A stretch of DNA of 64,000 nucleotides from the NCBI RefSeq assembly GCF_027359675.1, contig NZ_CP114786.1, positions 1 to 64,000 of the forward strand, given 5' to 3'. A model generated the notes under the pieces. The model ran no database searches. It was not told where the DNA came from and worked only from the letters and a program-made list of their open reading frames with translations. Shown piece after piece: positions 2,469-20,456 of the stretch. The position numbers were made by a program, and so were the translations under genes. How positions within the stretch are numbered: position 1 is the stretch's first letter; each line of letters opens with the position of its first letter. This stretch comes from Roseibium sp. Sym1 (GTDB taxonomy: Bacteria; Pseudomonadota; Alphaproteobacteria; Rhizobiales; Stappiaceae).

Positions 2469-4274
2469 ATGAGCGAACAAATTACAAAAGCAGAAAACGG
2501 CACTGTACGCGCCGTAGTGCTGGTCCTTGTGCTGTGTTTCCTTGCGCTTTCGGCTGTGAGCCAGGCCGTCGCAGCGGTGAAACCCGGCGGAAACAGCGGC
2601 TGGCTGGTCGTGGCGAGCCGTGCGGACGCGAACACGGCGATCTCGGTCGCACGCGGTTTCGCCGGCCGGTTCCCGCAGACCACGGTGTTTCAGTCAAACA
2701 ACGGCTGGTACGCCGTCACGCTCGGCTGGATGCGCCAGCCGGGCGGCAATGCCTACAAGAACAGACTGGTTGCCAGCGGTGCCATCCCAGGCGACAGCTA
2801 CATCCATGACGGCCAGCGTTTTCAATATGCCGTCTGGTCGGCGACAGGGGTTACCGGCGGGGCGTCGCAATCGCTCTTCTCCGCGACCGCGATCCGCGGA
2901 GACACCGGCGGACAGGCCGGCGGCTCCAGACCGGCCGCCCAGGCCTATGTGACAGGTCTCAATCCCGGTGGAGACAACTATCTGTCGCTGCGCACCGGCC
3001 CGGGCTCGCGTTACCAGGAAATCGCCCGCATGGGGCCGAATACACCGCTGACCGTTCTGGGACGGCAGGGCTCCTGGATGAACGTGGCGATGCGGGGCGG
3101 CCGCACGGGCTGGGCCTACAGCAGATACATTGCCTCCGTTCCGTCCACGGGCACGCCGCCAACGGTCGCACCTCCCACCACTCCCGCACCGAGCGTCAGC
3201 AGCCGGGCGATCTCGCCCCCGAGAGCGGGTGTGGTTGGCGACCTGAGCGCCAGCGGCGACACCTTTCTTGCGCTTCGCTCAGGCGCGGGCACGGCGAACA
3301 CGGAAATCGCGCGTCTCCTGGAAGGCACAGAGGTGACGATGCTGGCGCAACAGGGTGCCTGGATCGAGGTGGAACTGGGCAACGGCATGCGCGGCTGGGC
3401 CTACGGCCGCTATCTTCAGGCCGCCACCTCAAGGACAAACGGCGAGCGACCTTCCGCCGGCGACGTCCCGATCATCGGACCTTCCGCGTCGGCCGACGGG
3501 CCGAACGAGACGCAATCCGCCGAACCGCCTTCGGAAAGCGCACCCGATCTGCCGGATCTTTCAACCCTGCCGGAAGGCAAACGGGTTGCCCTTGTCATGG
3601 GCAATTCGGCTTATCGGCATGCGCCACTGCTGCCCAACCCGAAAAACGACGCTTCCCGCCTGACGGCAACCCTGAAACGGCTTGGCTTCGAGGTCATCAA
3701 CGGACTTGACCAGGACAAGGTGGCCATGGAAGCCACGGTCCGCTCTTTTGTGCGGGCTAGCCGGGATGCCGACGTGGTCCTGTTCTTCTACGCCGGTCAT
3801 GCCATGCAGATGGGTGGCAAGAACTATCTGATCCCGGTCGACGCCAAGCTCGAGGACGCCACGGCCGTCGACTTCGAAACCATCGAACTCGGCACCATCC
3901 TCAGCTACATGAACGCGCCCGGCCGCCTGTCGATTGCGCTTCTGGATGCCTGCCGGGACAATCCCCTTGCCCGCCGGTTCCGCGGCCTGGGCACCAGCCG
4001 GAGCGGATTTGTCGGGAGGGGCCTTGCGGCCCCGGAGGCCGGTGGCGGCAACGTCCTGATCGGTTTCGCGACGGCGCCCGGCGAGGTCGCGCTGGATGGT
4101 GACGGCGACAACAGCCCGTTCACGACCGCGCTCCTGAAACACATCGAGACACCCGGACTGGAAATCGAGATCATGATGAAACGCGTCAAGGCGGATGTCT
4201 ACGCCGCCACCGGGGGCTCCCAGTCGCCCTGGCACAACTCCGCCCTCAGGCGCGAGTTCTATTTCGTCAACTGA
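2469..4274 (+). CDS. Secreted SH3b-SH3b-caspase (peptidase C14) protein
   Basis: A 601-residue exported protein. An N-terminal hydrophobic segment (about residues 16-36, ending AVAAV) acts as signal peptide or anchor. A SPOR-like stretch follows (about 40-115), then two bacterial SH3 repeats (about 160-220 and 254-318, each ending GWAYxRY), a Pro/Ser-rich linker and a C-terminal caspase-like domain (about 370-600). The catalytic dyad is present: His444 in FFYAGHAM and Cys495 in LLDACRDNP. SH3b modules usually bind peptidoglycan, so action at the cell wall is likely; the substrate is unknown. SD-like aaggga precedes ATG 2469. A second caspase gene is at 34788-36290. Confidence 0.9.
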   Translation: MSEQITKAENGTVRAVVLVLVLCFLALSAVSQAVAAVKPGGNSGWLVVASRADANTAISVARGFAGRFPQTTVFQSNNGWYAVTLGWMRQPGGNAYKNRLVASGAIPGDSYIHDGQRFQYAVWSATGVTGGASQSLFSATAIRGDTGGQAGGSRPAAQAYVTGLNPGGDNYLSLRTGPGSRYQEIARMGPNTPLTVLGRQGSWMNVAMRGGRTGWAYSRYIASVPSTGTPPTVAPPTTPAPSVSSRAISPPRAGVVGDLSASGDTFLALRSGAGTANTEIARLLEGTEVTMLAQQGAWIEVELGNGMRGWAYGRYLQAATSRTNGERPSAGDVPIIGPSASADGPNETQSAEPPSESAPDLPDLSTLPEGKRVALVMGNSAYRHAPLLPNPKNDASRLTATLKRLGFEVINGLDQDKVAMEATVRSFVRASRDADVVLFFYAGHAMQMGGKNYLIPVDAKLEDATAVDFETIELGTILSYMNAPGRLSIALLDACRDNPLARRFRGLGTSRSGFVGRGLAAPEAGGGNVLIGFATAPGEVALDGDGDNSPFTTALLKHIETPGLEIEIMMKRVKADVYAATGGSQSPWHNSALRREFYFVN

Positions 4275-8925: not shown

Positions 8926-9134
8926 AACGGGTCCTTCTCGCCGGCCCTGTCAAAACCGCCATTTCAACAGGCGCCGGGCCACTGAAATCCTTGAAGTGGG
9001 CATCCGCCATTCGATAGCGGCCCGGAGGTTTCCTGACAAGAACGAGAAATTCTCCCGGCGGCTGTTTTCACCTTCCCATGAATTGTTTAAGGAAAGACCC
9101 AGCGCGAGGGGGCGCAAGTCTGGAGAATGTCTTG

Positions 9135-9788
9135 ATGGGACGGATAGGTGCTGCCGCAATCGCGATTGCGTGTCTCCTGCCAGCGGCGGGGACGGCCAAG
9201 ACGGTTGAAATCGAAACCATCCCGGTCACGCCTGTGCAGGAAAGCCCCGTTCTTCCGGACGAGGAGACGGTTCTTCCCGTGACGGATGCTGCGGAAACAC
9301 CTCCGGCGCTGCAGACGCAGGACCGGCCACAGGTGCTTTACAACACCGCGGTGCTGCCGAAACCGGTCGCGCGCATGCATGCCCAGCTTAAGGAAGCTGC
9401 CCTCAACGGTGACCTGAAGCGGCTGCGCATGGTGCTGGAAAGCAACGAGATGCCGCCCACCCTGTCCTTCGGCGAGGTTGGCGACCCGATCGACTTCATC
9501 CGCCAAAGCTCCGGCGACGGCGAAGGCTACGAGATCCTCGCGATCCTTGCCGACATCCTGGATGCGGGCTTCGTGCATGTGGATGCCGGCACGCCCCAGG
9601 AAATGTATGTCTGGCCCTATTTCGCCCGCTATCCGATGGACGGCCTGACCCCGGACCAGAAGGTCGAGCTCTACCGCATCGTCACCGCCGGCGACTTTGC
9701 CGAGATGCAGGCCTTCGGCGCCTGGAATTTCTACCGCCTCGGCATCGGCCCGGACGGCACGCTGCATTATTTCGTGGCGGGGGACTGA
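9135..9788 (+). CDS. Secreted hypothetical protein; 3' end is the island insertion site
   Basis: A 217-residue protein with signal peptide MGRIGAAAIAIACLLPAAGT, an acidic Pro-rich linker (about 22-65) and a globular C-terminal part (about 70-217) ending GPDGTLHYFVAGD. The C-terminal half resembles small helical domains of rhizobial secreted proteins, but I cannot name it. ATG 9135 is preceded by ggag at 9122-9125; an ATG at 9078 would place 19 residues before the signal peptide. Its last about 80 bp plus the stop recur at 16750-16836 with one substitution (Asn to Lys codon), so the 3' end probably was the target of an insertion that restored the reading frame. Confidence 0.78.
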   Translation: MGRIGAAAIAIACLLPAAGTAKTVEIETIPVTPVQESPVLPDEETVLPVTDAAETPPALQTQDRPQVLYNTAVLPKPVARMHAQLKEAALNGDLKRLRMVLESNEMPPTLSFGEVGDPIDFIRQSSGDGEGYEILAILADILDAGFVHVDAGTPQEMYVWPYFARYPMDGLTPDQKVELYRIVTAGDFAEMQAFGAWNFYRLGIGPDGTLHYFVAGD

Positions 9789-9793
9789 GGCGG
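9707..9793 (+). repeat. Left copy of 87-bp direct repeat (island boundary)
   Basis: This stretch holds the last codons and stop of the gene at 9135-9788 plus 5 bp. It matches 16750-16836 at all but one position by my alignment (T at 9728, A at 16771). Similarity stops abruptly on both sides: gatg|cag versus tgcg|cag at the left and ggcgg|a versus ggcgg|g at the right. Confidence 0.95.
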
Positions 9794-9952
9794 AGAAAAC
9801 TGCCGGGACCACCGGAAGCGCGCTCTTCCCAGCCGGAGCTGACGGGTCCGAAGGACCACTTCGTCCCCTGTCCGCATCTTTAGCCTTCATCGCGGGGCCA
9901 GCGCGCGCATCATGTCCCATGACCTTAGCCACTCCCGCTCTGGCAGACCGTC

Positions 9953-12900
9953 TCAATCCTCCACGCTTTGACGTTCCGCCTCGTCCTGCACATCGCGGAT
10001 GCGCACGACCTCAACGCTGTGACCGTTGCGCTTTGCCATGGTCAGCGCCGACATCAGGAGGCGCTTCGCGGACGCAACCCTGCGGCGGGCAAGCAGGACG
10101 TGCGCATAATCCGTCATGATGGTGTTGAGCCTCAGGGTCATGTCGTTCCGCCGCGCAATCGCCATAGCCTTCGTCATCAAGCGCCCTGAACTGGAAAAAT
10201 CGCCCGCCGCCAAAAGCATCATGCCCTGGGCATGCAGCGTGTCCACCTTGAGCGAGTACAGCCCCATCATGTCCGCATAGTGCTGAGCCTCGCGCAGCTT
10301 GACCCGGTCGGAGAGCATCTGCTTCCAAGGTTCATCTTCATATGTCTGGGACACCCAGACTTCGCTGACCAGAATTCGGTGGCGAACGTCTTCATGCCCG
10401 CCTTTTTCGGCATAGTCACGCGCGCGCAACAAGTGCTTCCTGGCTTCCTTGGCATCGTCATGCGCGACGATCAGGGCGAGGTGCTCGATCATGATTGCCA
10501 GCGCGCGGTCTTCATTGTCCTTTTCGAGAAAACCAACAACCTCCTTGAGGGTTTGTCTGGCTTCCTTCCGGCGGCCCTGAAGTTGCTCGAGAACCGCCAG
10601 ATAACCTTTGGCCAGCCACCCGACGCGTTTGAAGGGTTCGGGTTCGCTGTCCAGAATGGTGCGCAAGCGTTTCTCGGCGCTTTTCAGACGCCCCCGTTCT
10701 ATCTGAATGATGGCAAGATTGAGCGAAAGCATGTTGTGCATGCGTCCGCTATCCGCCAGCCCCTCGATCTGCCGATTGAGAAAGATCGCCTGGCGTTGAT
10801 GGCCAATTGCCTCGATCAACGCGCCCTGGACCAGGCATGTCACCGCGACCTCATTATAGAGCCAGACAATCTCGTCGAGATAGAGCGCGTTGACGCGGTA
10901 TTTGTCCGGCCCGGTGCCGTAGGTCTCGGCCTCGATGTCGTTGTCGTTGTCGCTACGCGGCTCGTGTACCTCCCATGCCTTGCGCAGGATCCACCGCAAT
11001 CGAACACGATATGTCTCGAAGTATCCGCGCTTGCGAATGAAATCGATGCCGGTCGATTCATCGTCAAACCGGGATACGGCGGCGATGGAAAAGCAGGTCC
11101 GCGCTAGCGACAGGCCGGCACGCAGCGCCTGAACCCGAGTCACGACGTCGTCGTCGTTGAAGATCGGCATGGCCCGGGCGGCGTCCTCGTGCCGGATATC
11201 CGGGTACTGGCTCAGACCCAGCAACAGACGCCTGAGAAACAGGTAGCCTTCCGCGGACAACCGCACAACGCGTGAAGGCATAGACGCAAAGAGTGTTGGT
11301 GAAAAACTGTTCGCTGATATCGGCGGCGCGGTCAAATGACCCAATCGCTCGAAGCAATAGCCCTGGATCTGCCGATGCAGGGCGTAGCGGCATTCGCGTT
11401 CAGCAGGCCACTCGTCGAAGGATTTCCGGAGTTTTTCCCGAACCTCGTCAGGCATTTCGGGAACAGGAAGGGCTTCCACTTCCTCGAGCCAATCGCAGAC
11501 CTCATCAGGCGTGTTGGCCTTGTTCACAAAGTCATTTATTACCAACCAAGCGCGAACCTCGGACGGCATGGGCGCTTGAGAGCGTGCCGACACCCTTCCA
11601 TACCAGTCACTCGGGAAATTGAGCATTTCGGGTTGAGGGATTTCCTCTTTCAGCTTGCTGAGCCAGTCGTAAATCGCTGGTGGTACGCCGATCTCAGGCA
11701 ACCTTGATTCACGATCAAGCCACAACAGTTTGGGATGCGGGCTCAGGCGAAAGATCAGGCCACGTTCACTGAGGGCTGCCAGGGCGCGGGCGACCATCCG
11801 CCGGCGGCTCAACCGTCCGTCGAATTGCACCTTGTTGAAATAGTCGCGGATATCGGGAAGCCGAACCAGCACATTCGGGCTGACCGGACACCCCAGAACG
11901 CTGACATTCCGCAACAAGAGCATGTGCAGTTCGCGATCATTGTCCGGATCACCAATGATCGATGTCCGGCGGTAAACCGACATCACGGCCTGAAGGACGA
12001 CATTCTCGCGTTGGCTGACACTCGTATTGCGCAGATCGGTGACCACGTTCTTGAGCAGCCGATCGGCGGCGGTACCGCCGTCTACAAATTTCTGGCTCAA
12101 AAAAATTAGGTGTTCCGCGGCCGCCAGCAGGATCGTCAGACAGAATCTGTTTCCGGCGAGCAATTGCTTGAGATCCGTCCAGTCGCGGTCGTCCTCGGAG
12201 TCGCCCTCGGGCTTTGCTATTTCTGAGAGTTCGCCCTGAAAGTTATGATAGTTTTCCGTGTCAATCGTCTCTGAGATAGACATTGCCCAGAGATCACCCG
12301 CCTTCGCTCGAAAAGCCTCGGCAACGGCGACATGGAATTCCTGACGGGACTTCAGATAGGCCTCACTGACGTCGGGAGGCATATCACCTTTCCAAAGCCT
12401 GTCTCTCGTCTTCCAGAGCGTTTCATAGGCGTGCCGTATTGTGTCGTTAAGGTCATCGGACAAGACCTGATTGCGCTGCGAGCGCGACTTGCGGGACACC
12501 AGGAGGGCCAGGGCCAAGATCGGAAAATTGTCGACCAGAAACTGGAGCGGATCGATGTCCCGGGCAAAGTGAACATGGTTGACTGCATTCAACAAATTCG
12601 ACGGGCGGTTCTCGCAATATTGTATTTTCCGGTCGCTTGCCTTCTTCCAGGCAAGAGCCCGTTCGTCCTCGGCGAGTCTGTCCGGAACGCAGCTTATGCG
12701 CTCCAAACGCTCATCATCCTTCCAAAAGGCCCCCATCTGGTCGAGCGCGCCAATGGCGATGAGATCGAACGGCATAACCGCCGCTTCCTTTGAGGAGAAG
12801 AACTCCAGATAGTCCAGGATTTCGAGGTTTTTTGGCCGCTTAAGATCGTCGAAGAGCAGTTCCACCGCGTTGATGCAGAAGAGAAGGCGCGGGCGGACCT

Positions 12901-15900
12901 CCAGCCCGAATTTGTTGCGCTGCGCGAATTTGTCCGCCGCAAGCTTGTATCGCCTCATCAGGTTGCGGAATTTTTCCGTTCGCTGAAGCTTGTCAATCCG
13001 AGGCTCGATTTTTTTACGTATATGTTCCGTGACCGCGTCTTGAAAATCGGGGCATTTCGGTGACACTTCCAACCGGCCGTTCAAGAAGTCTTCGAACTGC
13101 CGGGCCGGGTTGCTGGACACCGTGAAGCGGTATTTGTCGCAGATGGCGATTTCCAGGTGGGCGACCGCAATCTTCAACTCCCGTACCAGCATGTCAAAGA
13201 CCGACGCAATTTCGGTTGCGAAGCTGAGATTGATGTAAATGCAGGACGTGAAACAGGGCGGTTTCGACTTCGCTTGTCCCTTGCCCCAAAAGGACGGGTT
13301 ATGCGCTGCCTGGATATAACTTGAGAGACCCAGCAAGGTGCTGAGAGTGGAAAAGAAAATGCCTTTTCCCTGGCCTCTTTCCGCCGCCACCGTATGAACC
13401 AGCCGCCCGCGTGCAACCGCGGGCGAACGGCTGAATACGGCGATGTCGTAAATGAACTTGTCGAACACACGTACGCCGGTCAGAAACTTTTTGGAAAACG
13501 CGGCCTGCTCATCGTGAGCTATATCAGGCTCGGGCGCCGTCAGCCCGCCGCACTTTCGCAAGTCCGTTATGACGCTTTCAACCCGGTGGCGGACCACGCG
13601 CCGCGGCAGCACGAACGCCGCGCGCTGTTCTTCTTCAGCCACGAGCGGATCTGCCGGGATCTGGCGTTTGTCAAATTTGGGCAATGCCGCAGGTGCGGGC
13701 AGCTTTTCGAATCGCGGCTCTCGTTCGGGCGGTCTGGCCTGCCAATCCTGCCACCACGCGTGCCATTCCTGCTCAAGGCCATCAAGCGCCGCGTTGAGGT
13801 TTGCAGTCAGCAAGGCACCCTTGACACCGTTGAGAGCCGTTTTGAGCGCATTGAGGCTACGCCGCATGCGCTCCAGATCTCCATCCCGAATTTTTTCGCC
13901 AAGGGCCAATCGCATCAGGTGGGTCAGAAGCTCAACATAAAATCCTGTGTACTTTTCACCGTCGATGTCAATGCGGCGGTGGGCACTGCTTTGCTCGATA
14001 TTCTGGTGCCGGTAGCTCGTGTAGGAACAACTCCTGAGCGTGAGTTCATTAAGTTCGATTTTCCCCAAATTCTCGTCGCGAAAATCCTCCTGCGTCCTCC
14101 CGAGAAGGATAGGCAGGGCATAGGTATCTTTTTCCTTCTGCTCATGTAACAGGAGGTCATTGCCCAGCTTGCCGACCTTCTCCCGCAGGGTCTTCAGGTC
14201 GATGATGGCCTTTGCCCGATCCGCAATCTCACTTTCGTTCAGCTCTCCCACGTCCTTTTTGAAAAGTTCCAGGCGTTCGTCTGCCGCCTCCGAAAGCGTG
14301 CTGATCAGCAAACTCATGCGATGCAACCAATCGATGGATTGCGGCGTTGAACGTTTTTCGCCGCCTTCGGCAGGCACGTCGATTTCGCCGCCGCCGTAAA
14401 AGATCGTGTGAGCGCCGTAACGCAGGTAGAGCCCGGCCGCCATTTTGGCCCGGGATTCGAAATCCTTGCTTCCGGGCAGAAGCACGATCGAGCGGTAGCC
14501 GACCGACCGATCCTGATCCGACATGAACTGCCGGAGCGGGCGTAAAACATCCGATTCCTCCATGCCGAGGCCGAGAAACAGGATCGGCGTAGCCGCGAAA
14601 GCCATCAGAATGCTCTCGTCGACGACTGCCCTGTCCGGATCGTTGCGTAAATAGAGATCCATATAGTCGCGTTCGGTCGCGACGATGTCGTCGGTTTCCG
14701 TCGCCCGGCCGTGAAGATGGAACACCGACACGTCCGCACCTGTGCCACCGGCCGAAAACGCGACAAGGTCCGTTGCGGTGCTGCTCTTGAACGTCATGTC
14801 GTGCATGACGCCGCCCAGACCGTCGGTCCGGAAACTCTTCGGATCCGACGCCGGATCATCGACGTTGTCGACCGACGCCTTGTGGGGATCAAACCGCCGG
14901 TAGCCCTTGTCCTGAAACAGGCGCTCAATCTCGAAATCGTAATTGGTTGTCAGATACCGGCTGATCCGGAGCCGTTCACTGACCTTTTCAAGCGGATCAA
15001 ACCGCCGGGCCATAATCGACCGCCGGGATGTGAAATCAGAGGAACCCGGCGGGTGCAGGTCTTGTTCTTCGTCAAATGAGTCGAATGGCCGCTCCAGCAG
15101 CTTGTAGATGACCGGAACCAGAAACCGCGACGTCGGGGTGAGGAACACTCGCCTGGTTTCCAGCGGCGCCGAACTGTCCTTTTCTTCGTCAAGGTTCGTT
15201 TCAACCGTTTTCAGCAATTTCTTCCAGTTTTCCGGAACGCGGCTTTCGGTACGGTGTATAAGATTTAGCAGCCGTTCAATCTTGAAAGGTGTCAACACCT
15301 TGTAACGGTTCTTGTTTTCACGAATTCCGTCAATGTCACGCTTGAGGTTGTTTTCATTGGTGTAAGAAACAGTTTTCCGAAGCTTTTCGGTTCTCACGTC
15401 TGTTTGTTTGGCGACGCTGTGCCGACCCGATCCCTGGTCGCACTCAAACCCGGACAGAAGCAGGCTCTCCGCGTGAGCGCACTCGTCCACCAACAGGTTT
15501 TTGGCGAGTTGATCGAAATCGTAGCCCGCCTCCGGACGGCTCGCCTTGCTGCTGTATGCGGCAAGCGCATTGCGGAATTCAATGAAGGTTTTTTTTAACT
15601 TCGCATCTATCTTTTTTTGTGCAATGGCAAAATCAAAGCACTGTGCCAGTTCAGCCAGAGGCGCTCCTTCAGACGCGCAAACTCTGGTGCCGAAAAACAG
15701 CTTTGGCTTCCTGTGCCTTGTTTTTTTTGAGTTCCCCAAAAAATCGTCTTCACCTTCAAAAAGGTGCCTGTGGCGCACCAGGAGATCATGCAGTTTCTTG
15801 CCGATCTCGAACAGGATGGGGAGATCTTCGCCACCAGGGAAGTTCCCGTTCTTGCTGTTGGCGGCGTCAAATGTGCGTTTAAGGTTTTCTATATCCCACC

Positions 15901-16321
15901 GCGCGCGCGTGATGATCTGGCGGCGGTGCCGCAGCCATCTTTGAGACAGGCGAACGGCCGTTTTCGTGTTTTCGCAATCCGTCAGTTCGGTATCAATCTC
16001 GGTAAGTTCATCGATATGTTTTATCGAGAAATTGGCGACCTCAAGGAAAGACTTCGACAGATCCCGGACATATTCGAGTTGCGCATCCTTCCAGGTGTTC
16101 CAGTCCATCCGGCCATAAGCCGCTGAGATGCCCGAGCCGATAAATGCCGTCAGCGAACGTGAATTCAGCGCCTGGAACAGGAGCTGCTTGGCGCGGCCCT
16201 CTATCAGCGTGCTGTCGAGCGTATCGTCTATCTGATGGATGGTGTACGGCCAGTAGCGTAGTTCCTCGGTAATATTCTTCAAGTTGTCCTTATGGCGATT
16301 GGTTGGGTCGCTGCTCATCAT
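9953..16321 (-). CDS. Giant SIR2 - STAND-like - TPR protein (candidate anti-phage NADase)
   Basis: The 2122-residue protein has an N-terminal SIR2-like core with every expected motif: GSGIS (62-66), TTNYD (458-462), HLHG (535-538) and GLGMEESD (584-591). About 390 residues sit between the first two motifs, far more than usual. A P-loop region follows: AERGQGKG (980-987), with Gly where Ser/Thr is expected after Lys986, and a Walker-B-like LLFCINAVELLFDD with Asn1151 where Asp is expected. A winged-helix-like part (about 1465-1545) and TPR-like helices (about 1800-2110) complete it. This is the layout of SIR2-STAND defence proteins (Avs5- and DSR-like), in which TPRs sense a phage product and SIR2 depletes NAD+. 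Function is inferred. No Shine-Dalgarno is seen before ATG 16321 (second ATG 16318). The reading frame is intact. Confidence 0.85.
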   Translation of the reverse strand: MMSSDPTNRHKDNLKNITEELRYWPYTIHQIDDTLDSTLIEGRAKQLLFQALNSRSLTAFIGSGISAAYGRMDWNTWKDAQLEYVRDLSKSFLEVANFSIKHIDELTEIDTELTDCENTKTAVRLSQRWLRHRRQIITRARWDIENLKRTFDAANSKNGNFPGGEDLPILFEIGKKLHDLLVRHRHLFEGEDDFLGNSKKTRHRKPKLFFGTRVCASEGAPLAELAQCFDFAIAQKKIDAKLKKTFIEFRNALAAYSSKASRPEAGYDFDQLAKNLLVDECAHAESLLLSGFECDQGSGRHSVAKQTDVRTEKLRKTVSYTNENNLKRDIDGIRENKNRYKVLTPFKIERLLNLIHRTESRVPENWKKLLKTVETNLDEEKDSSAPLETRRVFLTPTSRFLVPVIYKLLERPFDSFDEEQDLHPPGSSDFTSRRSIMARRFDPLEKVSERLRISRYLTTNYDFEIERLFQDKGYRRFDPHKASVDNVDDPASDPKSFRTDGLGGVMHDMTFKSSTATDLVAFSAGGTGADVSVFHLHGRATETDDIVATERDYMDLYLRNDPDRAVVDESILMAFAATPILFLGLGMEESDVLRPLRQFMSDQDRSVGYRSIVLLPGSKDFESRAKMAAGLYLRYGAHTIFYGGGEIDVPAEGGEKRSTPQSIDWLHRMSLLISTLSEAADERLELFKKDVGELNESEIADRAKAIIDLKTLREKVGKLGNDLLLHEQKEKDTYALPILLGRTQEDFRDENLGKIELNELTLRSCSYTSYRHQNIEQSSAHRRIDIDGEKYTGFYVELLTHLMRLALGEKIRDGDLERMRRSLNALKTALNGVKGALLTANLNAALDGLEQEWHAWWQDWQARPPEREPRFEKLPAPAALPKFDKRQIPADPLVAEEEQRAAFVLPRRVVRHRVESVITDLRKCGGLTAPEPDIAHDEQAAFSKKFLTGVRVFDKFIYDIAVFSRSPAVARGRLVHTVAAERGQGKGIFFSTLSTLLGLSSYIQAAHNPSFWGKGQAKSKPPCFTSCIYINLSFATEIASVFDMLVRELKIAVAHLEIAICDKYRFTVSSNPARQFEDFLNGRLEVSPKCPDFQDAVTEHIRKKIEPRIDKLQRTEKFRNLMRRYKLAADKFAQRNKFGLEVRPRLLFCINAVELLFDDLKRPKNLEILDYLEFFSSKEAAVMPFDLIAIGALDQMGAFWKDDERLERISCVPDRLAEDERALAWKKASDRKIQYCENRPSNLLNAVNHVHFARDIDPLQFLVDNFPILALALLVSRKSRSQRNQVLSDDLNDTIRHAYETLWKTRDRLWKGDMPPDVSEAYLKSRQEFHVAVAEAFRAKAGDLWAMSISETIDTENYHNFQGELSEIAKPEGDSEDDRDWTDLKQLLAGNRFCLTILLAAAEHLIFLSQKFVDGGTAADRLLKNVVTDLRNTSVSQRENVVLQAVMSVYRRTSIIGDPDNDRELHMLLLRNVSVLGCPVSPNVLVRLPDIRDYFNKVQFDGRLSRRRMVARALAALSERGLIFRLSPHPKLLWLDRESRLPEIGVPPAIYDWLSKLKEEIPQPEMLNFPSDWYGRVSARSQAPMPSEVRAWLVINDFVNKANTPDEVCDWLEEVEALPVPEMPDEVREKLRKSFDEWPAERECRYALHRQIQGYCFERLGHLTAPPISANSFSPTLFASMPSRVVRLSAEGYLFLRRLLLGLSQYPDIRHEDAARAMPIFNDDDVVTRVQALRAGLSLARTCFSIAAVSRFDDESTGIDFIRKRGYFETYRVRLRWILRKAWEVHEPRSDNDNDIEAETYGTGPDKYRVNALYLDEIVWLYNEVAVTCLVQGALIEAIGHQRQAIFLNRQIEGLADSGRMHNMLSLNLAIIQIERGRLKSAEKRLRTILDSEPEPFKRVGWLAKGYLAVLEQLQGRRKEARQTLKEVVGFLEKDNEDRALAIMIEHLALIVAHDDAKEARKHLLRARDYAEKGGHEDVRHRILVSEVWVSQTYEDEPWKQMLSDRVKLREAQHYADMMGLYSLKVDTLHAQGMMLLAAGDFSSSGRLMTKAMAIARRNDMTLRLNTIMTDYAHVLLARRRVASAKRLLMSALTMAKRNGHSVEVVRIRDVQDEAERQSVED

Positions 16322-16749
16322 AAATATTCAATCCATGAACGGCCCTCGCGCAGATCTCGGAGCCGTCTAAAAAATCAGCCTGAAACACGCTTGGCAGCTG
16401 CCCCCTGCGAAGCCGGATTAATTCTTTGAGTGAAGCCTATAATGCCCGACGGTACAAGCCATGGTGGGCTTTGAGGCGTTTTCACACCAGAGAAGCGAAC
16501 CGCCGACGCTGCCAGCCCGACAACCTACGGCCCGCCTCAAGACACCTGCTTACAGCGACTGTTCTTCGTCCCCTTTGACTGCTGACAGGCACCAGATTTC
16601 GAAATCGCCGAAGATTCGAAATCACTGTTTCATTGAGCGGGCTAAGGCATTCCACCACGAAAGTTCCATCATCAGCCAACCGCATGGGAAGAAACGTTAC
16701 CTTCGAAAATACTTTTCGCAGTAGACGGGTCGAACACCGTCAACCTTGC
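16322..16749. other. Unassigned right part of the island
   Basis: About 430 bp upstream of the giant gene. It holds a 12-bp palindrome GATTTCGAAATC (16595-16606) and a near-copy GATTCGAAATC (16613-16623), about 270 bp from the giant gene's start, and two overlapping short open frames on opposite strands (16482-16685 minus, 67 codons; 16461-16724 plus) that I do not recognise. It probably contains the promoter of the giant gene. Confidence 0.4.
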
Positions 16750-16836
16750 GCAGGCCTTCGGCGCCTGGAAATTCTACCGCCTCGGCATCGGCCCGGACGG
16801 CACGCTGCATTATTTCGTGGCGGGGGACTGAGGCGG
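16750..16836 (+). repeat. Right copy of 87-bp direct repeat (displaced 3' gene end)
   Basis: This repeats 9707-9793 with one substitution, so the frame reads QAFGAWKFYR...HYFVAGD-stop without any start codon upstream (an in-frame TAA occurs about 100 bp before). A perfect palindrome CTGCCGCGCGGCAG follows at 16838-16851 and may be part of the original terminator. It is best read as the displaced native 3' end of the gene at 9135-9788. Confidence 0.9.
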
Positions 16837-17031
16837 GCTGCCGCGCGGCAGGATGGGATGTCAACCGGCTTGCGGCCTGTCCAATTGCGAATGAAACCTG
16901 ACCGGCCGCATACCGACTATTGCAGCGTCCGGGAAAATCATGATTATTGAAGTGTGCCAACCTGAAACTTCAACCCTTGTTTGTTCAGAAACCGCATTTG
17001 TCCGTGCACGGTCTGCGAAAGGTTTTCGGCA

Positions 17032-17247
17032 ATGAAAATGATCGTCAAACATGCATTTCCTACACTTTTGCTAGCACTTTTCACCCTGGGGGGATGCCAA
17101 TCGAACAATTCATCGGGGGCCGGCCTGGAAGACGGCAGCGCCGCACCGGGCACGGATCTGGTCGTCGCCAATCAGGGACCGGACGGGCCACCCGACGAAT
17201 GTGATGCAATGTCCGAAGGCACATCGACGACGCTCGACTGTCCTTGA
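17032..17247 (+). CDS. Small lipoprotein
   Basis: A 71-residue protein with a classical lipoprotein signal: MKMIVKHAFPTLLLALFTLGGC, lipobox LGGC. The mature part is short, Ser/Gly/Asp-rich and ends with a Cys-Pro. The aaagg at 17018-17022 supports ATG 17032. Function unknown; it lies just outside the island. Confidence 0.7.
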   Translation: MKMIVKHAFPTLLLALFTLGGCQSNNSSGAGLEDGSAAPGTDLVVANQGPDGPPDECDAMSEGTSTTLDCP

Positions 17248-17451
17248 TGGCAAGCGGATGGTCTCTGCCTCACCTGTTCCGACCGCCCTGCCCTTTCCCG
17301 GCTTGGACATGGAGGCCTCGACAGCCCGCTTGACCAAATGACGAACCATCCGGGAAATGGTGAGGTTGCATTGGGTACGTCGAGCGAATGGTTCGTCCCG
17401 AACAGGTGCGGGACGGACAGCCCTGAAGCCAAGACGCGAAAGGCCTGTGCC

Positions 17452-18450
17452 ATGCGTTCCATGACTTTTGCCCACCGGCTTGGAGCCGCTATCACAGCAC
17501 TTGTGTTCCTAAGCTCCCTCGCGGTTGCCCAATCGGACCCGCTGCCCTCCTGGAACGACGGTGCCAGCAAGCAGGCCATTGTCGAATTCGTCGAAGCCGT
17601 CACCACGGAAGGCGGGGCAGACTATGTGGCTCCCGGCGATCGCATCGCGACCTTCGACAATGACGGCACGCTCTGGGTCGAGCACCCGATGTACACCCAG
17701 CTCGCCTTCGCCCTCGACAGGGTCAAGGCGATGGCCCCGGACCATCCGGAATGGAAGACCACCCAACCGTTCAAGGCGGTTCTGGACAATGACCTTGAAA
17801 CCCTCGGCGAGGCCGGCGAAAAGGGGCTGATGGAAATCGTCGGCGCCACCCATGCCGGCATGAGTGCAGCAGAATTCGAAAAAATCGTCAGCGAGTGGAT
17901 CGCAACGGCCAAACACCCGACGTTCGACAAGCCCTACACCGATCTCGTCTACCAGCCGATGCTCGAGCTTTTGGCCTATCTCCGGGCAAACGGCTTCAAG
18001 ACCTTCATCGTGTCCGGCGGCGGCATCGAGTTCATGCGCCCCTGGACAGAAGAGATCTACGGCATCCCGCCGGAACAGGTCGTCGGCTCGTCCATCCAGA
18101 CGGACTACAAGGTCATCGACGGGGTCCCGACCCTGCAGCGCTCCGCCAGGATCGCCTTCATCGACGACAAGGAAGGCAAGCCGGTCGGCATCCTCACCCA
18201 TATCGGCAAGCGCCCCCTCGCCGCCTTCGGCAATTCCGACGGTGACTACCAGATGATCGAGTACTCGACCGCGGGCGACGGCAAACGGCTTGGCATGTTC
18301 GTTCATCACGATGACGCCGACAGGGAATATGCCTATGACCGGGACACCCATTTCGGCAAGCTGGACAAGGGGCTGGATGACGCTTCCAAGGAAGGCTGGC
18401 ACATCATCAGCATGAAAAAGGACTGGAAGCAGGTCTTTCCCAACGAATAA
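17452..18450 (+). CDS. Secreted HAD-family hydrolase
   Basis: A 332-residue HAD phosphatase with a Sec signal peptide ending SSLAVAQ. HAD motif I is DNDGTLW with nucleophile Asp69 and acid/base Asp71; motif II is the Ser of IVSGGG; motif IV is GNSDGDYQM. The fold and periplasmic location suggest a nonspecific acid phosphatase or phosphoserine-phosphatase-like enzyme; the substrate is unknown. ATG 17452 follows aaagg with 8-nt spacing and places the signal peptide at the start. A cytochrome gene follows after 50 bp in the same direction. Confidence 0.88.
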   Translation: MRSMTFAHRLGAAITALVFLSSLAVAQSDPLPSWNDGASKQAIVEFVEAVTTEGGADYVAPGDRIATFDNDGTLWVEHPMYTQLAFALDRVKAMAPDHPEWKTTQPFKAVLDNDLETLGEAGEKGLMEIVGATHAGMSAAEFEKIVSEWIATAKHPTFDKPYTDLVYQPMLELLAYLRANGFKTFIVSGGGIEFMRPWTEEIYGIPPEQVVGSSIQTDYKVIDGVPTLQRSARIAFIDDKEGKPVGILTHIGKRPLAAFGNSDGDYQMIEYSTAGDGKRLGMFVHHDDADREYAYDRDTHFGKLDKGLDDASKEGWHIISMKKDWKQVFPNE

Positions 18451-18500: not shown

Positions 18501-20456
18501 ATGCTGTTGCCCAGATGCCTGCTCCCCGCCCTTCTTTGCCTTTGGGCAGGCATCGCCGTAGCGCAAGCCCCCTCCACCGGGACCAGCAGTCCCGACTACG
18601 TGGGAACCGCAACCTGTTCCGGCTGCCATGTAAACGAAACAGCCGCCTGGAAAACCTCCCACCACGCACAGGCCTGGATGGAGCCGGGGCCGGACACGGT
18701 GGACGGCGACTTCGGCAACGCGGACTTCACCGCCCGCGGCCGCACCACGCGGTTCTTTACCGAGAACGGCGATTATTTCATCGAAACGGAGGACGCGCCG
18801 GACGGATCCAGGACCTTCAAGGTCATCGGTGTCGCCGGCATCGCGCCGCTGCAGCAATACCTGGTCGAGACCGAACCCGGCCGGATCCAGTCCTTTGACG
18901 TGGTCTGGGACCAGGAAGAAAAGCGCTGGTATCACCTTTACCCGGACCAGGAGCTGAAACCGTCGGACGGGTTGCACTGGTCGGGTCCCTACAAGAACTG
19001 GAACGCCCGCTGCGCCGAATGCCATGCGACCGGATTTCAGAAGAATTACAGCCAGAGAGAACGGAATTATTCCAGCAGGCAGGCGGAAATCGGTGTCGGC
19101 TGCGAGGCCTGTCACGGTCCCGGCGAGGCGCATGTGGCCTGGGCCCGGGACAGGGAAACCTACGCGGCTAGTCCTTTTCCCGGCACGGGCGAGAGCGGTC
19201 TCCTGATCGGCTTCACAAAAGCGCTTCCCGAGACCGAAATCCAGCAATGCGCCGGCTGTCATTCCAGGCGCGAAGCGTTCGAGGACGGCAATCCGTTGCC
19301 TGGAACGCCCTTTCACGATGCCTACCGGCTCTCCCTGTTGCGCAACGGGCTCTATCACGCCGACGGCCAGATCCAGGACGAGGTCTATGTCTACGGCTCG
19401 TTCCTGCAGTCGAAAATGTATGCGAAAGGCGTGCGCTGCACGAATTGCCACGAGCCACACAGCGGTCAGCTCAAGGCGGAAGGCAACGCCATTTGCACCC
19501 AGTGCCATTCCCCGGCCGGCAACGACGCGTTTCCAACCCTGTCAAAGAAGCCTTATGACAACCCGTCCCACCATTTCCACGAGACCGGCACGGCCGGTGC
19601 CGAGTGCAAGTCCTGTCACATGATCGAGCGGACCTATATGGGCATCGACGGGCGGCGCGATCATTCCTTCCGCGTGCCGCGCCCGGATCTTTCGGCAAGG
19701 CTCGACACGCCGAACGCCTGCAACGACTGCCACGCGGACAAATCCGCCTCCTGGGCGGAGGCCGAACTCGAGAAGCGCTTCCCGGACAGCCCGCACCGGG
19801 GATCTCACTTCGGCGAGGTCCTTGCCGAAGCGCGGCAGAACACCGGAGTGAGGTCCGACGATCTGCTGGCGATCGCACAACAGACGTCCCTGCCGGGTAT
19901 CGTGCGCGCGTCTGCGCTGGAACTGCTTCTGCCCTCCGCCACGCCCGCTCTCGCCGGAGACGCGGCCGCGCTCATTCAGGATCCGGATCCCCTGGTGCGG
20001 GCCGCAGCCGTCGCCTTGCAGCAGCACGCACCGACGCCGGAAAGAATACAACGGATAAGCCCTGCCTTGAGCGATCCCGCCAAGGCTGTCAGGCTCGCGG
20101 CAGCCCGCCTGGTGGCCACTGCCAGGATTTCCCACATGCCGGACGCGCTGTCGCAGGCGGCAGCCAGGGCGACCGGCGAATGGCAGCAGTCGCTGGCCAA
20201 CAAGGCCGACTTTCCCGAAATCCATCTTGTGCTCGGCGGGACAGCCCTGGTCATGCGCAACGCGCAGGCTGCCGTCGCCGCTTTCGAGGAAGTCACAAGG
20301 CTGGATCCGCAGATGGTCAACGCCTGGGTCATGCAGGTGCGCATCAAGCTGGCGATCCGGGACATTGCCGGCGCTCAGCTTTCCCTGCAGAAGGCCTTGC
20401 TGGCAAATCCGGGCGATCCGACCCTTGAACAGTACAGGCAACAATTCGCGCAATGA
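18501..20456 (+). CDS. Octahaem c-type cytochrome with HEAT/TPR C-terminus
   Basis: A 651-residue exported protein (signal peptide to about residue 22). Eight CxxCH haem-attachment motifs run from CSGCH at residue 39 to CNDCH at 407, including CAECH, CEACH, CAGCH, CTNCH, CTQCH and CKSCH. The first part resembles the cytochrome c554 family. The last 230 residues form alpha-helical repeats (HEAT-like, then TPR-like: ALVMRNAQAAVAAFEEVTRLDPQ). It should act in the periplasm as an electron carrier or multihaem reductase; the partner is unknown. It follows the HAD gene and converges on a LuxR gene. Confidence 0.9.
   Translation: MLLPRCLLPALLCLWAGIAVAQAPSTGTSSPDYVGTATCSGCHVNETAAWKTSHHAQAWMEPGPDTVDGDFGNADFTARGRTTRFFTENGDYFIETEDAPDGSRTFKVIGVAGIAPLQQYLVETEPGRIQSFDVVWDQEEKRWYHLYPDQELKPSDGLHWSGPYKNWNARCAECHATGFQKNYSQRERNYSSRQAEIGVGCEACHGPGEAHVAWARDRETYAASPFPGTGESGLLIGFTKALPETEIQQCAGCHSRREAFEDGNPLPGTPFHDAYRLSLLRNGLYHADGQIQDEVYVYGSFLQSKMYAKGVRCTNCHEPHSGQLKAEGNAICTQCHSPAGNDAFPTLSKKPYDNPSHHFHETGTAGAECKSCHMIERTYMGIDGRRDHSFRVPRPDLSARLDTPNACNDCHADKSASWAEAELEKRFPDSPHRGSHFGEVLAEARQNTGVRSDDLLAIAQQTSLPGIVRASALELLLPSATPALAGDAAALIQDPDPLVRAAAVALQQHAPTPERIQRISPALSDPAKAVRLAAARLVATARISHMPDALSQAAARATGEWQQSLANKADFPEIHLVLGGTALVMRNAQAAVAAFEEVTRLDPQMVNAWVMQVRIKLAIRDIAGAQLSLQKALLANPGDPTLEQYRQQFAQ

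Follow-up and report, generated by a model that had tools for sequence, protein, structure and literature searches.

The giant gene and its insertion unit

The window analysed here is a stretch of 64,000 nucleotides from Roseibium sp. Sym1 (assembly GCF_027359675.1, contig NZ_CP114786.1, positions 1 to 64,000). It begins with dnaA and carries, on the minus strand at 9953..16321, a giant gene that combines a SIR2 domain, a P-loop region and tetratricopeptide repeats (TPR) and is a candidate immune sensor. The open reading frame (ORF) of 2122 residues, called in a preliminary description made from the sequence alone, is real at these coordinates and has no internal stop.

The gene stands behind an intact core gene of 236 aa (9078..9788, plus strand), which belongs to no Pfam family and has a match in all 45 genomes of the genus. 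A repeat search revealed two direct repeats of 87 nt, identical at 86 positions. The left one (9707..9793) takes in the core gene's 3' end with its stop codon and 5 nt beyond, and the right one (16750..16836) is a truncated copy of the same 3' end; among the 45 genomes, a second, C-terminal-only copy of the core gene (residues 209–236) is found solely in the window's own genome (G000). Between them lies a unit (9794..16749; 7,043 bp repeat to repeat) with the giant gene as its sole evident gene and a GC content of 0.563, as compared with 0.615 in the lowest other 7,043-bp stretch of the window. In G019, the nearest relative by the core gene, the site is empty, and the core gene runs straight into the flank that in the window follows the right repeat. 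For the other 10 of the 11 compared genomes, the alignment reaches the repeat region and none extends beyond it. The unit is a foreign insertion, and its earlier description as a lone gene in a compositionally distinct, repeat-bounded unit is borne out by the GC content, the repeats and the empty site.

No integrase or transposase is evident in 9794–16749, where the giant gene is accompanied by just antisense and short ORFs, which were not profiled. An Rfam scan of 9000–17500 at E ≤ 0.1 yielded nothing, and promoter-like and terminator-like sites are rarer than in shuffled sequences.

Domain organization

The SIR2 domain is split. Its first part, with the GSGIS motif, spans approximately residues 36–73 (16103..16216, here and below on the minus strand), and the second, with the TTNYD, HLHG and GLGMEESD motifs, residues 451–859 (13745..14971); these boundaries are our reading of the structure model, and Pfam and the alignment also show the second part itself. 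The parts are separated by a helical insert of ∼375 residues (∼74–450; 14972..16102), the profile of which matched nothing in PDB below E 0.5. The predicted model of the N-terminal part has a SIR2 Rossmann-like fold, and SIR2_2 (PF13289) matches residues 456–624 with 42.8 bits against a curated cut-off of 24.5. The same profile matches all 20 family members tested (E ≤ 0.01), and T458, N460, D462, H537 and G538 are invariant in the 90 aligned members, N460, D462 and H537 being the catalytic residues. The preliminary description had listed a complete set of SIR2 motifs and had staked its case on a SIR2 fold within residues 50–650; motifs and fold are both present. A profile of 20 members reaches the ThsA-type chain 7uxt (E 6e-4, over 49 positions), and the fold matches of the SIR2 part are mostly immune effectors, SPARSA among them. 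The protein is predicted to be a NADase.

The P-loop NTPase-like region occupies approximately residues 940–1290 (12452..13504) by the structure model and alignments; the P-loop plus strands are visible in the model of the region within the larger protein. Canonical Walker A motifs carry Ser or Thr directly after Lys. Here, the motif is a variant, RGQGKGIF (residues 982–989; 13355..13378). Its family-wide pattern, RGxGKG, has G983, G985 and G987 in 90/90 members, R982 in 84/90 and K986 in 85/90, with Arg in the remaining five. Hence Gly occupies the Ser/Thr position (G987) in every aligned member and the pattern is not GxxxxGK[S/T], so that the region may hydrolyse ATP differently or not at all. 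Its profile, built from 18 rows, found nothing in PDB below E 1. The P-loop region noted earlier is thus present, and sequence profiles do not recognise it as a STAND NTPase. One entry in alignments A6 and A7, labelled as the giant protein of locus L044, is a wrong-strand ORF, and this locus was left out of A8.

A helical linker follows (∼1291–1540; 11702..12451, from the secondary structure of the model), containing at ∼1482–1526 a winged-helix-like pattern of helices and strands seen in the model's secondary structure alone. The C-terminus (residues 1815–2121; 9959..10879) forms a TPR superhelix. Of the Pfam models, TPR_19 is barely over its cut-off and TPR_MalT and TPR_12 fall under theirs; together with the structure model and MalT-type fold matches they substantiate the TPR-like repeats reported previously. 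As a single-sequence query against solved structures, the protein gave no meaningful match. A family missing from the fold-match lists was not taken as absent.

Family and distribution

A search of a large protein set yielded a family of 94 proteins including this one, called, where named, SIR2 family protein or TPR protein. Ninety of them exceed 1,700 aa, and 87 of these 90 fall at 1,900–2,450 aa. The full-length gene is present in two of the 45 genus genomes (G000 and G022) and two others (G014 and G043) encode distant relatives of ∼1,780 aa. Any match is thus found in 4/45 genomes of the genus, in 8/87 of the family and, at E ≤ 1e-30, in 2/199 drawn from the order, with the window's genome counted each time. 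This rejects a fixed housekeeping gene, and presence in all related genomes, named beforehand as the finding that would speak against a defence gene, does not apply.

Named relatives come mostly from Alphaproteobacteria (Labrenzia sp. OB1, Stappia, Rhodobacteraceae, Hoeflea, Aquibium), with single loci labelled Granulosicoccaceae, Mesoflavibacter and others. There were no relatives among phage records and none in IMG/VR, where 75 pattern stretches turned up and none was related; a phage-borne gene has no support from these searches. Two plasmid matches are both partial, covering 35 and 29% of the query. Among the matches listed in the open PMC literature, which includes no preprints and few subscription papers, no title or abstract opening names the family. 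In an uncultured Rhizobiaceae genome (L040:10880-13161), the giant gene is interrupted by two minus-strand ORFs (258 and 502 aa), which we take to be IS21-like in layout.

Similar insertion units at other loci

Direct repeats of a core-gene 3' end flank the giant gene in three of 25 loci, the window and 24 others; L040, with its interrupted gene, and L041 and L045–L050, which are short, partial or distant, were left out. In Aquibium sp. ELW1220 (L033), the repeat is 184 nt long (98.4% identity) and derives from the 3' terminus of a DsbA-family gene, a second, C-terminal copy of which is present in the genome. In G014 (L057), a 292-nt repeat (97.9%) matches the 3'-terminal part of a DNA methyltransferase gene, which we read as ccrM from its own sequence and its presence in 45/45 genomes; G014 alone among the 45 has an extra C-terminal copy of this ccrM-like gene. 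The empty site of L057 is colinear in G040, one of five relatives compared, with ∼420–446 nt unaligned between. In all three units the giant gene and the intact core gene converge tail-to-tail, and the truncated copy is found on the giant gene's promoter side, in L033 past an AAA gene. The three main repeats are all within 3 kb; L033 and L057 have secondary repeat pairs of 65–83 nt farther out.

None of 27 control stretches, taken from five window segments and 22 loci, in some of which the orthologous core site was used, had a comparable repeat, with flanks of 3.3 kb in the control versus up to 10 kb in the test. The flanks of L023, L032 and L036 stop at contig ends. Outside the 25 loci, L050 has a 56-nt repeat (80%, E 2.6e-8) with copies 808 and 1,626 nt away from the match, which would clear the threshold of the control and is possibly a fourth example, and L040 has a 91-nt repeat (71%, E 3.8e-6). 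Weaker repeats of L027, L037, L038, L042–L044, L029, L045 and L047 were judged to be due to chance.

The units have no convincing end sequence in common: the matches were of 11–13 nt, plus one of 31 nt at 81% (E 0.01–0.9). Possible routes of insertion are site-specific integration by a recombinase that was supplied in trans or later lost, a single crossover of a circle with core-gene homology, or duplication during illegitimate recombination. That the repeat copies are so nearly identical suggests DNA donated from within the species or from a very close one, or sequence copied from the host. Integrase-less genomic islands, including cis-mobilizable elements (CIME), are a known class. The units resemble them in flanking repeats of core-gene 3' ends and the lack of an evident recombinase inside, and differ in a cargo of one or two genes, differing target genes for related cargo and the absence of shared end sequences.

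An adjacent AAA ATPase gene

Of the 29 related loci scanned, 10 have an AAA ATPase gene right next to the giant one, eight times upstream in the same direction and twice (L031 and L103) divergently. The scan leaves out L041, L046 and L049, and L028 and L030 in it are near-identical. The partner is ∼700 aa long, with Walker A (GPPGAGKS-type) and Walker B intact in the alignment. Searches of the genomes G000 and G022 found no copy of it, so that the earlier description of a single-gene system stands for this genome and does not hold family-wide. In the tree, the window groups with L024 and L023, then with L032 and L025, and all five lack the partner. Mapped on the tree, its presence needs five changes, at least four of them forced by supported branches, against a mean of 8.1 for shuffled labels; hence gain or loss occurred several times.

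In G014, a homologue of the partner is not adjacent to the giant gene; its neighbours are a Cap17-like gene (PF18178, 4e-92) and a gene for another AAA protein. This cluster (L087:6476-14042), which also includes a 585-aa ORF with no family above cut-off, is possibly a separate defence system. Another genome of the same family carries, ∼12.5 kb from its intact partner gene, degraded pieces of a second (G083:C1:1982579-1983005). The N-terminal half of the partner (L033:7475-9571) has conserved GDxxxD and GGV motifs, to our eyes reminiscent of PfkB-type kinases; in five partners there was no such Pfam match to E 0.1.

Gene neighbourhoods

Among 115 neighbour ORFs from 18 loci, 55 PADLOC families were matched at E ≤ 1e-15, a count that is inflated because single ORFs match many models. 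The 115 were taken from 134, after removal of nine AAA partners, four ORFs of the near-duplicate locus L028, L029:18019-23265, L039:12834-15194, three ORFs of L040 and an antisense ORF of L033; the large neighbour of the PtuB-type gene in L039 is thereby outside the set. We traced neighbours from the best 25 of the 55 families, which include PtuA-type models. L027 has a type II restriction-modification system close by, which begins 1.1 kb from the giant gene; a Septu gene, traced as PtuB-type only, lies at ∼1.1 kb in L039, and an AbiU-like gene at ∼3.3 kb in L026. A strong helicase match in L038 may, we presume, be a housekeeping Lhr-type helicase. In the genome of Labrenzia sp. OB1, an AbiU-like gene (G280:C6:43436-43945) is on a different contig from the giant gene. 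Overall, the neighbourhoods lend modest support to a role in defence.

Elsewhere in the window, near dnaA, 2469-4274 (plus strand) encodes a caspase-domain protein (Peptidase_C14, 1.3e-40) with bacterial SH3 domains. To the right of the insertion, 18501-20456 (plus strand) encodes a multihaem cytochrome-like protein with weak HEAT/TPR matches, adjoining a HAD phosphatase gene. Relatives of both latter genes are within 9 kb of the core gene in G008, and neither is in the stretch compared in G019.

Comparison with known systems

The protein had been assigned to the logic of Avs5 and the DSR families and called far larger than their members. The size difference is real, as the solved Avs5 chains have 764 and 833 residues and DSR2 about 940–1000. 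Membership is not upheld. For Avs5, nSTAND3 (PF20720) is not matched at E ≤ 1 here or at E ≤ 0.01 in 20 members, which concerns sequence profiles and leaves room for a distant fold. The Walker A also differs, RGxGKG as opposed to GPAGSGKT, the motif of PaAvs5-1 (PMC12931631). Unlike Avs5, the giant protein has a SIR2 domain split by ∼375 residues and no nSTAND3 or other STAND profile; like it, it ends in repeats of the TPR/Sel1/PPR kind. For DSR1/DSR2, the Dsr1 profile (E 2.7e-4) matches two short stretches, the better at profile positions 15–48 of 1227, and the giant protein adds P-loop and TPR regions.

ThsA chains of Thoeris have ∼470 residues and a SLOG sensor. Just short stretches of the ThsA models match the giant protein, which has P-loop and TPR regions after SIR2. 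With the MalT and PH0952-type STAND proteins it shares the C-terminal TPR superhelix (fold matches 1hz4 and 6mfv); it differs in an N-terminal SIR2 effector and in that Pfam recognises no STAND NTPase in it. Most likely, the protein works like Avs5 or DSR2, though our tests place it in neither.

Proposed function

We consider the protein, with a probability of about 0.6, to be a horizontally acquired SIR2 NADase immune sensor in which the TPR part senses and the P-loop region acts as the switch. The C-terminal superhelix, perhaps together with the helical insert, would bind a phage protein; the P-loop region would keep the protein off until ligand binding drives assembly; and the split SIR2 domain, once triggered, would hydrolyse NAD+, halting phage replication or the cell. 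Since all aligned members have Gly where Walker A normally carries Ser/Thr, nucleotide binding is a likelier means of control than fast hydrolysis. In part of the family, the adjacent AAA ATPase probably joins the control; it is absent from the window's clade.

Several observations weigh against this reading. Pfam STAND or NTPase families are not matched in any of 20 members at E ≤ 0.01, and the Walker A lysine is itself replaced by Arg in 5/90; the switch may therefore be dead. PADLOC scores of the giant protein are weak and limited to short stretches (ThsA 3e-7 at best, PDC-S25 1e-6, LmuA 2e-4, Dsr1 2.7e-4). A clear defence neighbour was traced in just three of 18 neighbourhoods, and a control set of 99 ORFs from 12 other regions also matched seven PADLOC families at E ≤ 1e-15 (PycC cyclase models, PDC-S07, mad3 and RT-Protease_XI). 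No known defence gene is evident among ten window genes scanned with Pfam.

The same sensor logic could be directed at plasmids or other mobile elements instead of phages. The architecture would be identical, the fold matches include the plasmid-targeting SPARSA, and the lack of relatives in phage records and IMG/VR has no bearing on the trigger. We think this unlikely, as those defence genes that were traced close to relatives belong to classes generally regarded as anti-phage, although restriction-modification and Septu can act on plasmids too. It is rather improbable that the unit is a selfish element which the SIR2 protein serves by excluding competitors or killing upon loss: a cassette with no other evident gene, direct repeats permitting excision by RecA and matching geometry at two other relatives would fit, but no antitoxin-like partner is evident in the unit (its short ORFs were not profiled) and 22 of 25 loci have no comparable repeat. 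A role outside immunity, in housekeeping or stress, whether as a MalT-like regulator or as a SIR2-type modifying enzyme, is very improbable, for although the TPR part resembles MalT domain III and the order of P-loop, winged-helix-like stretch and TPR is found in regulators too, the gene is patchy (4/45 genus genomes) and on a foreign unit, and the SIR2 matches are mainly immune effectors.

To us, the most interesting pair of features is the family-wide P-loop without Ser/Thr and the recombinase-free insertion behind core genes. It is conceivable, and we put it forward tentatively, that giant split-SIR2 sensors with this P-loop, carried on recombinase-free units of one or two genes that lie tail-to-tail behind core genes with a truncated 3'-end copy (87, 184 and 292 nt) on the far side, represent a distinct mode of defence-gene capture, which keeps the core gene intact and would be reversible by RecA. 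The three units pose a testable question, namely how recombinase-free defence cassettes enter at core-gene ends, one of them that of a ccrM-like methyltransferase gene. If the immune-sensor reading is true, the family would be a large, conserved and uncharacterised branch of NAD-depleting immunity, with a P-loop of an unusual kind and, in some members, an AAA partner.

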